Source of the DNA: Actinomycetota bacterium
Lineage (GTDB): Bacteria > Actinomycetota > Geothermincolia > Geothermincolales > RBG-13-55-18
Reading direction: 5' to 3'
Assembly (NCBI GenBank): GCA_028697145.1
Contig: JAQVFR010000028.1
Coordinates: forward strand, 1-44,800
DNA: 44,800 nt
Position numbers and translations under genes: made by a program. The first letter of the stretch is position 1, and each line of letters opens with the position of its first letter. The notes beneath the pieces are model-generated. The model saw only the letters and a list, made by a program, of their open reading frames with translations, was not told the origin of the DNA and ran no database searches. Shown piece by piece: positions 5,259 through 23,322 of the stretch.

Positions 5259-6575
5259 CTATTCCGGGGTGTCAAATAAGCGCATTCTCCACTCATCCGA
5301 CATCTTCTTCTCCTCGCCCTCGCTCCCCGGGCGGTAGAATTCGTCGCCGTCCAGTCCCTCGGGCAAATAGCGCTGGGGTACGTAGTTTCCCGGAAAATCG
5401 TGGGGATAGAGGTAGCCTTCGCCATGCCCGAGCGCCCCGGCGCCGTTATAGCTGGCGTCCCTGAGGTGGATGGGGACGGGCGGAGTCATGCCGCGTTCCA
5501 CCTCCCTGCTGGCGGCTGCTATGGCCTTGGTCGCGGAGTTGCTCTTGGGCGCCAGTGCCAGATAGATCACGGCATGGGCAAGGTTCAGCTTGCATTCCGG
5601 CAGTCCCACGAACTCCACCGCGCGCGCCGCCGCTTCCGCTACCTGCAGGGCTCGGCTGTCCGCCAGGCCTATATCCTCCGATGCGAAGATGACCATGCGG
5701 CGCGCGATGAAGCGGGGATCCTCTCCCGCGTATAGCATGCGCGCAAGCCAGTATATGGCGGCATGCGGGTCCGATCCCCTCATCGATTTAATGAAGGCGG
5801 ACACGGTATCGTAATGGGCGTCCCCGGACTTATCGTAGAGAAGCGCCTTGCGCTGCGCAGCTTCTTCGGCGATCTTCAGGTCCACGCGCCCTCCCTCTGC
5901 CATCCCGGCCAGAAGCGCGGCGGCCTCGAGGATGTTGAGGGCAATGCGGGCGTCACCTCCCGACATGCCCACGATGTGCTGGATTGCGTCCTCTTCTATC
6001 TCCAGCTCCGCCAGCCCACGCTCCGGGTCCGCGAGCGCCCTCTCCACCACGGTGCGCACCTCCTCCTCGCTGAGGGGGGAGAGTCGGAATATCTTGGAGC
6101 GCGAGACCAGCGCCGAGTTGACCTCGAAATAAGGATTTTCCGTGGTGGCTCCGATGAGAACGATGGTCCCCTGCTCAACAGCGGGCAGCAGCGCATCCTG
6201 CTGGGCCTTGTTGAAACGGTGTATCTCGTCGATGAAGAGAATGGTGCGCTGACCCTGCATTCCGAGGCGATCTCCCGCTTCCTGTATCAGTTTGCGCACT
6301 TCGGCAACGCCGCTGGTCACCGCCGATATCTGCTGAAAATGCGACCGGGACATGTTGGCTATTATACCGGCCAGGGTGGTCTTACCCGAGCCGGGAGGTC
6401 CCCAGAAAATGGCGGTCTGGAGCTTGTCCTCCTCGATCGCCCGCCGCAGATAGGTCCCCTCTCCCACCACATCCTTCTGGCCGACGAACTCCTGCAGGGT
6501 AAGCGGACGCATGCGCGTGGCCAGGGGTGCCTCCCTGCGCTGCATTTCCTCTTTCGCGGATTCGAAGAGGTCCAA
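5259..6575 (-). CDS. rarA: Replication-associated recombination protein A (RarA/MgsA AAA+ ATPase)
   Basis: AAA+ ATPase related to clamp loaders that acts at stalled replication forks. From the TTG start at 6575 the protein is 438 residues, the family norm, beginning [19 protein letters not shown]. Walker A is GPPGSGKTT at about 59-67; Walker B is [10 protein letters not shown]; sensor GATTENPYF follows, with the C-terminal oligomerisation domain. An in-frame ATG at 6662 would add residues that overlap the predicted 6S RNA and is rejected. A TATAAT box lies at 6615-6620, giving a leader of about 30 bases. It is followed after 54 bases by the iscU-like gene. Confidence 0.93.
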
Positions 6576-6614
6576 GCTGCCGCCTTTCAAGACCGGAAAA
6601 ACCGTGACAGCTCT

Positions 6615-6620
6615 ATTATA
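6615..6620 (-). promoter_or_regulatory. -10 element (TATAAT) for rarA
   Basis: A perfect TATAAT on the minus strand about 40 bases before the rarA TTG start and just past the predicted 3' end of the 6S RNA. No good -35 hexamer is visible, so this is a probable rather than certain promoter. Confidence 0.5.
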
Positions 6621-6636
6621 AGGGGCGGAGATGATA

Positions 6637-6842
6637 GAAAAGGGGCTCCACCTTGCCGTCAACGCCGCTATCTTGAACCTGCACCCTTGCAGGTGGGCAC
6701 CTACCTCGGATCTCCGCAGTCCCCAACCCGGGTTCAGGGCTTTGCGTCCACCTTCGGAAAACGGCTCCCTTAATCGAAGTGTTGGCTCAACGATAACCTA
6801 CGGCGCAAAACGCACAAGGTCGGGCCCGATAAGTCTTCCTGA
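6637..6842 (-). ncRNA. ssrS: 6S RNA (RNA polymerase-binding regulatory RNA)
   Basis: 6S RNA mimics an open promoter and sequesters housekeeping RNA polymerase. The call rests on structure and position. Reading the minus strand, five 5' segments pair in order with 3' segments: GGGC 6827-6824 with GCCC 6646-6643; ACCTTG 6820-6815 with CAAGGT 6655-6650; CGCCG 6805-6801 with CGGCG 6667-6663; TATC 6795-6792 with GATA 6672-6669; TTGA 6790-6787 with TCAA 6676-6673. A perfect 7-bp hairpin (6694-6677) sits beside the last pair, as in the 3' side of the 6S central bubble. The 3' end is CCCCTTTTC. Upstream, GATAAC (6854-6849) and TTGCCC (6878-6873), 18 bases apart, could be the promoter. 6S genes often lie beside rarA in Firmicutes. 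Ends are approximate; no covariance search was possible. Confidence 0.75.
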
Positions 6843-7052
6843 CTCTATGTTATCACAGCTCGAGGTGACCGGGGGCAACAGGGAAACGTGGAGATCCCAA
6901 AGCCCCGGGAGACAAGGTGTTCGGGCGATGCCCCTTCTGCGCAATCAATCTTCCCGAGGACCGGGGGTCGGTCTGAAGCGACCTTCGCGAGCAGTGTGCT
7001 CGACTGGGAATCTGTGCTCTATGATACTCAACCGGGTTATGCGACTCTGCAG

Positions 7053-7111
7053 CCTGCGAGTGCGTAGCGAAGACCGTTACCCCCGGACTCGGGCTCAAAA
7101 TACAGAGCCCG
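7053..7111. repeat. Intergenic hairpin repeat, copy 1
   Basis: This stretch between the CoA-transferase gene and the 6S RNA shares the 10-mer GACCGTTACC (7072-7081) and a following CTCGGGC with a repeat at 30,839. CGAGT (7057-7061) can pair with ACTCG (7087-7091). A second perfect 7-bp stem with an 8-base loop lies at 90-96/105-111 of this block (7090-7096 with 7105-7111). That stem begins just after the CoA-transferase stop and may serve as its 3' end, though no T-run follows. The rest of 6850-7129 shows no gene. Confidence 0.5.
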
Positions 7112-7129
7112 ATCACCTCAACTCCCGGG

Positions 7130-9019
7130 CTAATCCCTGAAACTCATGGTCAGTTCGTAAACGCCGGAGGAAACCGACCTCTCGATATCGAAACCCGCCT
7201 GTTCGAAGACGTGCATCATGGGCTTGTTTTCAGCCAGCACCTCGGCCGTGAAGCCGTGCAAGCCCTGCCTCCTGGCGAGCTGGGTGAGATAGGCCAGAAG
7301 CTCCGTTCCGATGCCCTGGTTCTGGTGTTCGTCCTTGACCACGAAGGCCACTTCGGCGTGGTGGGTTCCCTCGTTTATGCTGTATTGCCCCACGCCAGCA
7401 AGGATATCCTTCTCCTCGCCGGGAAGCATGGCGAGGATGACCATCTCCTTGGTGAAGTCGATGACCACGAAATCCTGCAGGCGGTCGTGGGGCATATCCT
7501 GGCGCGTGGAGACGAAACGGCGATACATGCTCTTGTCGGACAGGGAATAGTAGAAGTCCTTGAGCAAGGGTTCATCGCTTATTTTGACGGGCCTGAGCAG
7601 GACCTCGATCCCTTCCTTGGTGACGCGGTATGTCTCCAGGTCCGCCGGGTATTCTCCAGCCTTGCCGGGGATGAATGCCTGGTCGCGGTAGATGATGTTG
7701 TCTTTCTTGGCCTCTTCGATCAGCCAGGAGCGGAAATCGGGGTGGGCTATGGCGATGAGCTCCATGGCCCTCTCCCTCACGTTCTTGCCATGCAGGTAGG
7801 CTATGCCGTATTCAGTGACCACGTAATGCACGTCACCCCGGTTTAGGGTCACGCCCGCGCCCTCCCTGATCATGGGGATTATCCTGGAGATCTTGCCCTG
7901 CTCGGCGGTGGAGGGAAGAGCCAGGATGCTCTTTCCACCCGGGGCCAGGATGGCGCCACGCATGAAGTCCGCCTGCCCCCCGATACCGCTGTAGAACACC
8001 TTGCCCAGGGACTCCGCCGAGGCCTGGCCGGTGAGGTCGATCTCCAGGGCGCTGTTGATGGCCGCCATCTTCACCTGCTGGGCGATGATGAGTGGATTAT
8101 TGGTGTAGTCAATGGTCCTGAACTCGATGCTCGGATTGTCGTCCAGAAAATCGTAGGTGTCCTTGAGCCCCATGCAAAAAGTGGCCACCGTCTTCCCCCG
8201 ATCCAGCGTCTTCATGCTGTTGTCGATCACACCCTTCTTGATGAGATCGACGATGCCGTCGCTGACCAGCTCCGTATGCACGCCGAGGTGTTTCTTGTCA
8301 ATCAGGTTCGCAAGGATGGCGTTGGGAATGCTGCCGTATCCCACCTGGATGGTGTCACCGTCCTCGATGAGGTGAGCAACGTGTTTGCCTATCTCGTCCG
8401 CCAGTTCGTCGGAGATGGTGGGGCTGTACTCCAGAAGGGGTTCGTTGTAGTAGAGGATGTAATCCACGTCGTCGATGTGGATGAAGGTGTCGCCGTGAAC
8501 GCGGGGCATGAACGAGTTCACCTGGCAGATGACAAGCGATGCCTTCTCCACCGCCGCCTTGGTGATGTCCACGCTCACCCCGAGGCTCATGTAGCCGTTG
8601 CGGTCCGGGGGGGATGCCTGCACCAGCGCTACGTCGATGGGGATGAAGTCTCGCCGGAAGAGTCTCGGGACCTGGGAGAGGAATATGGGCGTGTAATCCG
8701 CTAGCCCCTCGTTCACGGCCGTCCTGGTGGTCTCCCCGATGAAGAACGAGTTGTGCCTGAAGTTCCGCTGCAGCTTCTCATCAGCGTACGGGGCCACACC
8801 CAGGGTCCATACGTGAAAGACCTCGGCGTCGAACACCGCCTTGGGATGCGTCGCCGCGTAATTCGCCAGGGCAGAAACCAGTTGTTGGGGTTCACCGCAA
8901 CCGGTACCGATAAAGAGATGTGCCCCCCTGCGGATCTTCTCGAACACCCTGTTCTCGGGGATGAACTTGTCGGGATAGCGCTGCTCCATCTCGGTCATGA
9001 TGCGCTGTATTCGTTCCAT
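7130..9019 (-). CDS. Acetyl-CoA hydrolase/transferase family protein fused to a GNAT acetyltransferase
   Basis: A 629-residue two-domain protein. Residues 1 to about 460 are a family I CoA-transferase of the acetyl-CoA hydrolase/4-hydroxybutyrate CoA-transferase type. Visible marks are GTGCGEPQQLV near the N-terminus, the GVHTELVSDGIVDLIKKGVI block that should hold the catalytic Glu, and SGIGGQADFMRGA. Residues about 469-629 are a GNAT domain (EVLLRPVKISDEPLLKDF; acetyl-CoA loop HQNQGIGTEL near 566-573; AENKPMMHVFEQAGF) resembling the Pat protein acetyltransferase domain. The ATG at 9019 has GAGGAGG upstream. An acetate transporter and acs lie immediately upstream. Substrate is not provable: acetate/acetyl-CoA is the contextual guess. 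Confidence 0.88.
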   Translation of the reverse strand: MERIQRIMTEMEQRYPDKFIPENRVFEKIRRGAHLFIGTGCGEPQQLVSALANYAATHPKAVFDAEVFHVWTLGVAPYADEKLQRNFRHNSFFIGETTRTAVNEGLADYTPIFLSQVPRLFRRDFIPIDVALVQASPPDRNGYMSLGVSVDITKAAVEKASLVICQVNSFMPRVHGDTFIHIDDVDYILYYNEPLLEYSPTISDELADEIGKHVAHLIEDGDTIQVGYGSIPNAILANLIDKKHLGVHTELVSDGIVDLIKKGVIDNSMKTLDRGKTVATFCMGLKDTYDFLDDNPSIEFRTIDYTNNPLIIAQQVKMAAINSALEIDLTGQASAESLGKVFYSGIGGQADFMRGAILAPGGKSILALPSTAEQGKISRIIPMIREGAGVTLNRGDVHYVVTEYGIAYLHGKNVRERAMELIAIAHPDFRSWLIEEAKKDNIIYRDQAFIPGKAGEYPADLETYRVTKEGIEVLLRPVKISDEPLLKDFYYSLSDKSMYRRFVSTRQDMPHDRLQDFVVIDFTKEMVILAMLPGEEKDILAGVGQYSINEGTHHAEVAFVVKDEHQNQGIGTELLAYLTQLARRQGLHGFTAEVLAENKPMMHVFEQAGFDIERSVSSGVYELTMSFRD

Positions 9020-9249
9020 GCCCTTTTTCTCCTCCTCTCAAGCACATACCCACGCACCCTTGCGGCCCCGCGGGAGTCTTACCACTCCCTTTGCCGGAGG
9101 CCGGTGTTCCCGGGTACGCACGTTTTCTGTATTCTCATCCTTAATCTTATCAATAGTATGCCCTCGAGGAGGAGTAGTTGGATCAGTTCACGCGTGGACG
9201 AGGGATCATGCTCGAGCACGGGAAGCATGGTGAAGATCCCCGCCCGCAG

Positions 9250-9284
9250 AAAAAAGCGGCCGGAACAATCGCTCGTCCGGCCGC
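9250..9284 (-). terminator. Intrinsic terminator after the acetate transporter gene
   Basis: A perfect 9-bp GC-rich stem pairs 9276-9284 with 9256-9264. On the minus strand it is followed by TTTTTT (9255-9250). It lies 40 bases beyond the transporter stop and should end the acs-transporter transcript, leaving the CoA-transferase gene to its own promoter in the remaining 9020-9249. That stretch has an AT-rich patch near 9120-9160 but no convincing promoter boxes. Confidence 0.88.
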
Positions 9285-9323
9285 CATTCCAGGCTTATGC
9301 TATGATTCCGTTCTCCGGATCAG

Positions 9324-9938
9324 CTAAAGATCCTCCGGCCTTTTGTAGGCCTCCTTTTCTCCCACGGGCCATATGGGTAGTATCGTCTTGCCGTACATCT
9401 CGTTCAGGTTTTCCGCCATGGCCAGGTAGAGCGCTGCGAATCCGGTGAAGAGCCCGAGTATGCCGGATGCTATCATGAGGCCTTCGCCGGCCGCGATCTC
9501 GGCCCAGTTGCATATGGCCAGGAGGAAGAAGAGAACGGTCAAGGTCACGAAGATAAACTGCAGGACGCGGTTCACCTTGAACGTCCCGATGGTCATGAAC
9601 ACGGTGAAGACCCCCCACAGCAGCAGATACCATGCCAGGCCCTCTTTCCCTATCATCTCCAGCCCCAGGGTGTCTTTGGCGATCACCGCGAAGCACAGGC
9701 TGATCCAGAAGGTGCCGTAACCGATGAAGGCGGTAGTGCCGAAAGTGTTGCCCTTCCGGAACTCCATGGCACCCGCGATGACCTGCGCGAGGCCGCCGAC
9801 GAAGAAGCCCAGCCCCATGATGGTGGTATCAAAGCTCTTGATGATACCCACGTTGTGCAGGTTGAGCAGCATGGTCGTGAGGCCGAAGCAGGTCAACCCC
9901 AGGACCGCCGGATTTGCCAACTTTACGTCATCTGCCAT
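9324..9938 (-). CDS. satP: Acetate uptake transporter, GPR1/FUN34/YaaH (SatP) family
   Basis: Inner-membrane carrier for acetate and sometimes succinate. The 204-residue protein carries the family signature NPAVLGL (residues 9-15), a short loop with FGLTTMLLNLHN, and six hydrophobic segments ending near FAALYLAMAENLNEMYGK, followed by a short polar tail. Length is typical. It begins 72 bases after the acs stop and ends just before a strong intrinsic terminator, so acs and this gene form one unit. Import by this protein and activation by Acs form the standard acetate assimilation route. Confidence 0.9.
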   Translation of the reverse strand: MADDVKLANPAVLGLTCFGLTTMLLNLHNVGIIKSFDTTIMGLGFFVGGLAQVIAGAMEFRKGNTFGTTAFIGYGTFWISLCFAVIAKDTLGLEMIGKEGLAWYLLLWGVFTVFMTIGTFKVNRVLQFIFVTLTVLFFLLAICNWAEIAAGEGLMIASGILGLFTGFAALYLAMAENLNEMYGKTILPIWPVGEKEAYKRPEDL

Positions 9939-10010
9939 CTCTCACTCTCCTTTTCTCTCCCCGCCTAGCTACTACCCTTGCAGTCTACGGAATGTGATTA
10001 TGACGGATCA

Positions 10011-11993
10011 CTAACTCGTCAGTTGCTTGTTCCCCTCGATAAGAGAGTCGACGACGGACGGGTCGGCCAGGGTACTGGTATCTCCCAGCGTATCCGATGT
10101 CCCCTCCGCGATCTTGCGCAGGATCCTGCGCATGATCTTGCCGCTTCTCGTCTTGGGCAGGGTGGGGGTGAAATGTATCACGTCCGGGCTGGCGATGGGG
10201 CCGATCTCCTTACGGGTGTGCGCCACCAGCGCCTTGCGCACCTCTTCCTCGTCTAGTCCTTCGTACTCGGCCTTGAGGGTGACATACGCGTAGATTCCCT
10301 GGCCCTTGATATCGTGGGGCATGCCCACCACCGCCGCCTCGGAGACGTACTCGTGGCTGACCAGGGCGCTCTCCACCTCGGCGGTCCCGATGCGGTGCCC
10401 GGAGACGTTGATCACGTCGTCGATTCGCCCCTGCAGCCAATAGAAGCCGTCCTCGTCCACGCGGCAGCCGTCCCCGGTAACGTACAGGCCTGGGAACATG
10501 GACCAGTAGGTATTGACGAAAAGTTCGTGGTTGCCGTATACGGTGCGCATCATGCCCGGCCAGGGCTTGCGGATGCAGAGGAAACCGCTGTCGTCCGGCT
10601 CGACCTCCTTGCCGTCCTGGTTGAGCACGACCGGGTCCACCCCAAAGAAGGGAAAGCTCGCGGATCCGGGTTTCATGGGCGTGGCTCCCGCCAGGGGAGT
10701 GATGAGGATGCCGCCCGTCTCCGTCTGCCACCAGGTGTCCATGATGGGGCAGCGCCCACCTCCGATGTTGTCGTAGTACCACAGCCAGACTTCGGGGTTG
10801 ATGGGCTCGCCCACCGTGCCCAGCACGCGCAGCGAGGAGAGGTCGGCCGTCTTCGTCCAGTCCTCACCCTCCCGCATGAGGGAGCGGATGACGGTGGGGG
10901 CGGTATAGAACACGGTGACCTTGTGCTTCTCCACTACCTTCCAGAAGCGGTCCGGTTGCGGATAGGTGGGAACTCCCTCGAACATGACCTCGGTGAAGCC
11001 GTTGGCGAGCGGGCCGTAGACGATGTAGCTGTGCCCGGTCACCCAGCCGATGTCCGCCGTGCACCACCAGATGTCGTCCTCGTGGATATCGAATATCCAC
11101 TTCAGGGAGAGAGAGGTATGAAGCAGAAAACCGGCGGTGGTGTGCAGCACCCCCTTGGGCTTGCCGGTGCTGCCGCTGGTGTAAAGGATGAACAGCGGGT
11201 CCTCGGCATCCATCTCCTCCGGCGGGCATTCTCCCGCAACGTCCGGGGCCGCTACCTCCTCGTGCCACCAGTAATCGCGCCCCTCGACCATGTTCACATC
11301 GACGCCGGTGTGTTTGACCACGAATACGTTGCTCACGCCGGGGCATTCCTCCAGCGAAGTGTCGGCGCTCTTCTTCAGGGGAACGGTCTTGCCGCTGCGG
11401 AAGCCGGCGTCGGCGCATATGAGAATCCCGCAATCGCTGTCCAGTATGCGGTCCCGCAGCGCATCTGAGGAGAAACCTCCGAACACCACGCTGTGGATCG
11501 CGCCGATGCGCGCGCAGGCCAGCATGGCTATGGGCAGCTCGGGGATCATGGGGAGGTAGATGCATACGCGGTCGCCCTTTTTCACTCCGTGCTTCTTGAG
11601 CACGTTGGCGAAGCGGCATACCTCGTCGAGGATCTGGCCGTAGGTGTAGGTCCTGCTCTCCCCGGGCTCGTCGGGCTCCCAGATGATGGCCACGCGGTCG
11701 GCCTTGCCGGCGTTGACATGGCGGTCGAGGCAGTTATAGGAAACGTTGATCTTGCCGCCCTCGAACCAGGTACACTTGCACCCATCGGGATCCCAGGAAT
11801 ACACGCTGTCCCATTTCTTAGACCAGTCGAGGGTTTCGGCCATCTCGCCCCAGAACGCATCGGTGTCCTCGATGGAGCGTTTGTACATCTCCTTGTACTC
11901 TTCCATGCTCTTGATGTAGGCGTTCTTGCTTATCTCCTCGGGCGGGTGGATGATGGCCCTCTTGTCGGCTTCCTCGGCGTTGTGGTGCGTCAT
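10011..11993 (-). CDS. acs: Acetyl-CoA synthetase (AMP-forming)
   Basis: Activates acetate with ATP and CoA through an acetyl-adenylate. The 660-residue protein has the ANL motifs in order: [15 protein letters not shown] (phosphate loop), [31 protein letters not shown] (hinge) and [11 protein letters not shown]. Lys619 in the last is the residue that protein acetyltransferases modify to switch Acs off in other bacteria. The ATG at 11993 has AAAGGAGA upstream and is preferred to an in-frame ATG at 12110 that lies inside the promoter. A Pat-like GNAT domain is encoded two genes downstream. Length matches Acs. Confidence 0.97.
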
Positions 11994-12084
11994 CTGCTGT
12001 CTCCTTTCATCAAAAAGGGGTGACCTCAGCCGGTCCCCCTCCCCTGGTCCAGATGTAGTGCGATTTCGCTTCACCCAGCGTGAA

Positions 12085-12115
12085 ATTATAACACAGCAAA
12101 TGGGGTCCATGTAAA
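12085..12115 (-). promoter_or_regulatory. Probable acs promoter
   Basis: On the minus strand TTTACA (12115-12110) and a perfect TATAAT (12090-12085) are separated by 19 bases, in the only AT-rich part of the ispH-acs gap. This would give a leader of about 85 bases. The spacer is longer than ideal, so the -35 assignment is less certain than the -10. Confidence 0.6.
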
Positions 12116-22893: not shown

Positions 22894-22921
22894 AGGAGCG
22901 GGCGCCATGCGCCCGCCTCAC
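22894..22921 (-). promoter_or_regulatory. GC-rich hairpin in the yajC-secD gap
   Basis: GCGGGCG and CGCCCGC form a perfect 7-bp inverted repeat with a five-base loop, just after the yajC stop. No T-run follows on either strand, so it is more likely an mRNA processing or stabilising element than a terminator. The surrounding 196 bases up to the secD TTG hold no other recognisable gene. Confidence 0.4.
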
Positions 22922-22935
22922 ACCATTATTTCTCT

Positions 22936-23322
22936 TTATTTCTCTTTCGTGGACGCCCCAGCCGTATCTTCCGGTTCCCCGGCATCCTCTTCCTCTTCCG
23001 CTACCTCTTCCTCTTCCGCTACCTCTTCCTCTTCGGGCTCCTCCTCCGGCTCCTCGCGCACGGTGAAGGTGCGCGCGATGGCGCTCTTCGCCACCCTGAT
23101 CTCAACGTCCTCGGAGACCTCGAGCAGAATGGTCTCCTCCTCCACCTCGGTGATGGTGCCGTAGATGCCGGCGGAGGTCATTATCTCGTCTCCCTTGCGC
23201 AGGTTGTTCATCAATTCCATCTGCTGGCGCATGCGCTTCTGCTGCGGCCTGATGAGCATGAAGTAGAATATTGCGATCAAGCCCACGATGAGCAATATGG
23301 ACATCCAACTCGACTCACCCAT
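22936..23322 (-). CDS. yajC: Preprotein translocase subunit YajC with Glu-rich tail
   Basis: Small single-span protein associated with SecDF. Residues 7-25 form the membrane helix, then FMLIRPQQKRMRQQMELMNNLRKGDEIMTSAGIYGTI, the YajC domain signature (shown in part). The C-terminus (90-128) is very acidic: 21 of the 30 residues from 90 to 119 are Glu or Asp, partly encoded by a tandem 18-bp repeat. Length is 128 residues. It is the first gene of yajC-secD-secF and follows tgt by 38 bases. The acidic tail is the electrostatic opposite of the lysine tail on SecF. Confidence 0.94.
   Translation of the reverse strand: MGESSWMSILLIVGLIAIFYFMLIRPQQKRMRQQMELMNNLRKGDEIMTSAGIYGTITEVEEETILLEVSEDVEIRVAKSAIARTFTVREEPEEEPEEEEVAEEEEVAEEEEDAGEPEDTAGASTKEK
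22987..23034. repeat. Tandem 18-bp repeat inside yajC
   Basis: Two perfect copies of an 18-bp unit (22987-23004 and 23005-23022) are followed by a partial third copy. They encode a repeated six-residue EEEEVA-type unit in the YajC tail. Being in frame with a multiple of three, the copy number could vary without breaking the protein. Confidence 0.85.

Follow-up and report, generated by a model that had tools for sequence, protein, structure and literature searches.

A locus in the 44.8 kb stretch of DNA analysed here (the window) most probably (about 95%, by our estimate) represents the single 6S RNA gene of an actinobacterium that lacks WhiB and lies outside the well-studied Actinomycetes. 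6S RNA is a small RNA of wide distribution; it mimics an open promoter to hold back RNA polymerase. We base the identification on a covariance model match, covariation among relatives, a conserved template core and synteny, which together bear out an initial annotation that had proposed a probable 6S RNA at this site. When the whole window was scanned with Rfam release 15 (4227 families), RF00013 (6S) was the sole family above its cut-off. The match ran end to end over the model (1–187), and the check with the Rfam 6S covariance model that the initial annotation had suggested was positive, with 60.3 bits (E = 1.3e-9) against a curated cut-off (GA) of 46.4 bits. Aligned to RF00013, the window sequence displays a closing stem, a central bubble and a UGAGCC/GGUUCA helix. 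The gene has a G+C content of 61%, and a search across the window's genome for a second 6S copy found none.

We assessed covariation in an alignment of 15 sequences from the host order, using the Rfam structure of 48 pairs in five helices. Across these relatives 88.4% of cells were paired, compared with 35–53% when partners were slid by 1–3 columns, and the covariation score was reached by none of 500 shuffles. Compensatory changes in sister genomes, also proposed earlier as a check, were found: 12 pairs had changed on both sides, compared with 2–4 in the slid controls. The closing stem, the large central bubble and the apical stem were all backed by covariation; the upper helix was weakest (76% of cells). 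In its details that helix departs from the family consensus, and its two Rfam pairs that formed in none of the 15 sequences should be redrawn. RNAalifold, run on the same sequences without a given structure, returned 55 pairs, 18 of them with double changes. Its fold again contained the closing stem, the bubble and the apical stem, together with the hairpin on the bubble's 3' side. That hairpin (CCUGC/GCAGG), described at the outset as a stable element beside the central helix, is present and conserved in the relatives, and B. subtilis 6S-1 also has one on the 3' side of its bubble (PMC8414754).

The minimum free energy fold of the window sequence by itself (−79.9 kcal/mol, z = −1.49, with 17 of 200 shuffles as good) retained the closing and lower helices, rearranged the upper part and did not yield the canonical upper helix. 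Single-sequence folding was dropped as proof, being not clearly better than chance and non-canonical in its upper part, and it is therefore the comparative evidence that carries the 6S claim. The five ordered helices of the initial annotation accordingly hold as a comparative structure but are not fully visible when one sequence is folded.

The predicted template for the product RNA (pRNA) was placed by homology to known 6S RNAs. Its core, UUGAGCCAACA, lies at the 5' edge of the bubble, and is invariant in the 15 sequences of the order; a strict pattern found it again in 16 or more of the 36 other 6S loci examined from the phylum. The predicted pRNA carries GG at positions 4/5 and AA at 9/10, and an A adjoins its start; all three are hallmarks listed for known pRNAs (PMC8414754). 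The GG position is that stated for E. coli, whereas in lactic acid bacteria it is 5/6 (PMC8414754).

Table 1. Coordinates, within the window, of the 6S locus and its predicted elements.
Feature	Position	Strand	Basis
rarA, start codon TTG at 6575	5259..6575	-	NCBIfam RarA-type AAA ATPase; homologues start MDLFE
TATAAT in the 6S–rarA gap, probably rarA's own -10	6615..6620	-	sequence
Inferred transcript (~204 nt), starting 7 nt past the -10 and running to a short U run	6637..6840	-	conserved -10 and fold
6S RNA (ssrS), conserved structured core, 188 nt	6641..6828	-	RF00013 (60.3 bits) and covariation
Helix below central bubble, 3' strand GGUUCAA	6673..6679	-	alignment, covariation, fold
Hairpin in 3' side of central bubble, CCUGC-AAGGGU-GCAGG	6678..6693	-	conserved in relatives
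5' central bubble, AACACUUCGAUUAA, putative promoter-mimic open region	6770..6783	-	unpaired in consensus
Predicted pRNA template; pRNA 5'-GUUGGCUCAACGAUAACC	6781..6798	-	position by homology to known 6S
Helix below central bubble, 5' strand UUGAGCC, also part of pRNA template	6784..6790	-	invariant; pairs with GGUUCAA
Extended -10 of 6S promoter, TGATAACAT	6847..6855	-	same motif placed alike in 13 of 15 relatives

Among 18 genomes of the host order, the generic Rfam model detected 6S in 15, with scores of 50–82 bits. A covariance model trained on these 15 members raised the number to 17, adding two genomes (G004 and G005) at 123 and 195 bits; the sole genome in which it found no 6S (G008) is a 62% complete MAG, which also lacks rarA. 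The initial annotation had held that actinobacterial 6S RNAs are divergent and often missed. The window RNA is a canonical 6S rather than a highly divergent one, although the generic model gives it a modest score and fails to detect two of the 17 order members. Elsewhere in the class, 13 genomes of sister orders (G018–G030, four families) gave no credible 6S in Rfam searches to E 10, with the trained model to E 1, or around rarA. Nearly all of them have rarA, and aspS was absent within about 1.5 kb around it. 6S appears to have been lost within the class, with no replacement known.

A scan for a consensus −35/−10 pair at the 6S gene passed none, and the argument for a promoter thus rests on conservation. 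An extended −10 (TGnTAnnAT) occupies the equivalent place in 13 of 15 relatives, beginning 20–34 nt upstream of the 6S core, and the shorter TAnnAT is found in all 15. The plausible promoter first suggested corresponds to a conserved extended −10, not to a consensus pair. The U-rich 3' end amounts to a short U run (CCCCUUUUC) that is weakly U-rich, and a scan for a consensus terminator at the 6S 3' end found none. The bounds given in the initial annotation, 6637–6842, agree with the inferred transcript, which would start near 6840 and end near 6637. Further upstream, a strong inverted repeat (CGGGCTC...GAGCCCG, window ~7085–7115) follows just after the stop codon of the CoA-transferase/GNAT gene; it has no T run and is possibly that gene's terminator.

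In all 17 6S-positive genomes of the order the RNA immediately precedes rarA on the same strand, with a spacing of ~65 nt in the window, and this position could also suggest a cis-regulatory leader of rarA, such as a riboswitch-like element or attenuator, instead of a free RNA. We regard this as very unlikely. The RNA matches a trans-acting family, and in other families of the phylum it is followed by alaS or other genes instead of rarA. In addition, a further TATAAT is found in the gap before rarA, and one also occurs downstream of 6S in two loci of the same genus (L024, L025). Because rarA appears to have this promoter element of its own, the 6S RNA, with its putative promoter, is probably not part of the rarA mRNA. 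Mechanically called open reading frames also cover the region (plus-strand ORFs at 5763–6773 and 6631–7140, and an upstream extension of the rarA ORF), which might make the conserved structure a by-product of coding sequence. The relatives, however, differ by single-base indels and compensatory double changes, the rarA start at 6575 is conserved, and the 6S–rarA spacer is not, so that we give a coding origin next to no weight.

On the minus strand of the window, the gene order is hisS (named from its sequence), aspS, ispH, acetate-CoA ligase, acetate transporter, CoA-transferase/GNAT, 6S, rarA, iscU/nifU, alaS, ruvX and mltG. Within the host order aspS lies directly upstream of 6S in two loci (L009, L143); in the phylum it flanks 6S in most of the loci fetched, and rarA is often near as well. 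The order aspS, 6S, rarA on one strand is also found in Bacillota, in one Sporomusaceae locus (L078) and three from Alicyclobacillaceae (L050, L051, L090). The initial annotation had likened the site beside rarA to an arrangement in Firmicutes, and the layout it shares with the Alicyclobacillaceae and a Sporomusaceae genome is the upstream, same-strand one. B. subtilis 6S-1 is flanked by aspS (PMC11077062), and in lactic acid bacteria rarA precedes 6S (PMC8414754). Besides this locus, the window RNA shares with the Bacillota 6S-1 type its inferred length, the closing stem and central bubble, a hairpin opposite the 5' bubble and the predicted GG/AA pRNA template; it differs in belonging to Actinomycetota, in its G+C-rich sequence (61%) and in its moderate Rfam score. 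That two phyla have the aspS–6S–rarA locus in common favours vertical descent.

The surrounding region offered some further observations. The minus-strand series tgt, secD, secF, relA/spoT-like, dtd, hisS, aspS ... 6S, rarA, iscU, alaS, ruvX, mltG (window 130–24491) is one that we take to resemble the order in Bacillus subtilis, which would make it an unusually long neighbourhood shared between phyla. Between ispH and 6S (window 7130–12110) sits an acetate cluster of an acetate-CoA ligase, an acetate uptake transporter and a CoA-transferase fused to a GNAT domain, the fusion scoring well below family cut-offs. This cluster looks like a later insertion, since ispH or aspS adjoins 6S in other members of the order. 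Upstream of secD, at ~22900–23070, mechanically called open reading frames show a repetitive stretch, reading LFLFRYLFLFRYLFLF on the plus strand, which is probably a short tandem repeat.

Two other RNAs from the same phylum invite comparison. Ms1 of Actinomycetes, as in Mycobacterium and Streptomyces, has the shape of a 6S-like rod with a central bubble and associates with core RNA polymerase in the absence of the primary sigma factor (PMC9130861), and an RNA of that type in the window would share both phylum and general shape. Yet Ms1 is longer, ~300 nt, has two extra terminal hairpins and is located beside HAD hydrolase/oxidoreductase genes (PMC9130861). The window RNA, in contrast, fits the ~190-nt 6S model end to end, retains the pRNA template core and occupies the Bacillota-type aspS–rarA locus; neighbours of the Ms1 type (HAD hydrolase/oxidoreductase) are absent at the window locus, where the flanks are the CoA-transferase/GNAT fusion and rarA. 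We therefore judge an Ms1-like RNA very unlikely. CoRP, which is likewise abundant and RNA polymerase-associated, differs in being ~500 nt long, in binding both core and holoenzyme, and in being known only in Corynebacterium (PMC11077062).

By analogy with the 6S family, the predicted function is sequestration of the housekeeping holoenzyme through promoter mimicry, with release by pRNA synthesis. The ~200-nt RNA would accumulate when growth slows and, resembling an open promoter, would occupy the housekeeping sigma–RNA polymerase holoenzyme and block many promoters. On the return of nucleotides, the polymerase would transcribe a pRNA starting 5'-GUUGGCUCAACG; its synthesis would open the UUGAGCC/GGUUCAA helix, the CCUGC/GCAGG hairpin would take over, and the polymerase would be freed.

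WhiB (PF02467) is a hallmark of actinobacteria. It was found in 188 of 396 phylum-mates and, among 14 control genomes, only in Corynebacterium, which places the phylum as Actinomycetota and settles a point that the initial annotation had left conditional ("if the host is an actinobacterium"); a search of the window's own genome for WhiB found none. Among the 396 genomes, 141 carried 6S at E 0.001 or better, 82 of them above the cut-off, in a survey that was limited to six scored candidates per genome and failed to recover four known cases from the window's own family (G006, G007, G010, G013). WhiB and 6S occurred together in only one of the 188 WhiB-bearing genomes of this sample (Fisher p = 3e-53, a value that ignores kinship and is not independent evidence). 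Because the strict filters had lost known cases, 40 WhiB-bearing genomes, one per family, were rechecked with laxer filters, and again a single one was 6S-positive. Searches for 6S were negative in named actinomycetes and acidimicrobia (Nonomuraea, Sphaerimonospora and two Acidimicrobium-type MAGs), and the scores of two MAGs with the title Actinomycetota were 59.2 and 44.6 bits. A search for a 6S remnant in the aspS–rarA gap of an Acidimicrobiaceae locus (L074) and of a further locus (L099) found none. Canonical 6S RNA is thus common in Actinomycetota, yet almost never present in WhiB-bearing genomes.

A second genome with both WhiB and 6S (G043) came from another sample; it has four WhiB matches. 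In both such genomes, G033 (locus L005) and G043 (locus L022), 6S lies between aspS and rarA, at ~1400–2700. These two lineages may mark a stage before 6S was lost in the WhiB clade. We find it reasonably likely that a canonical 6S gene in the aspS–6S–rarA arrangement already existed in the common ancestor of Bacillota and Actinomycetota and was kept by most WhiB-less lineages. In the WhiB clade it would have been lost, its function passing to Ms1, CoRP or other RNAs, and the sister orders of the class would have lost it independently.

6S RNAs have been described as widespread except in Actinobacteria (PMC9130861, from 2022), and as unidentified in Actinobacteria save for one candidate in Streptomyces (PMC11077062, from 2024). 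In these accounts Ms1 or CoRP stands in for 6S in the phylum. Both papers deal mainly with Actinomycetes. Our results extend the known 6S family to many further lineages of Actinomycetota. Databases may already hold some of these genes, since a standard Rfam search suffices for most, and the broad 6S survey of Wehner et al. from 2014, which PMC9130861 cites, may likewise include some actinobacterial examples. Judged by its sequence, the RNA itself is an ordinary, well-supported member of the 6S family; what merits pursuit is its pattern across the phylum. If 6S is indeed ancestral, Actinobacteria could be said to lack 6S only as far as the well-studied part of the phylum is concerned. With a syntenic 6S gene in the host order and in many WhiB-less families, the supposed exception would become a loss or replacement event with a place on the tree, and the distribution points to lineages in which 6S and its successors can be compared.
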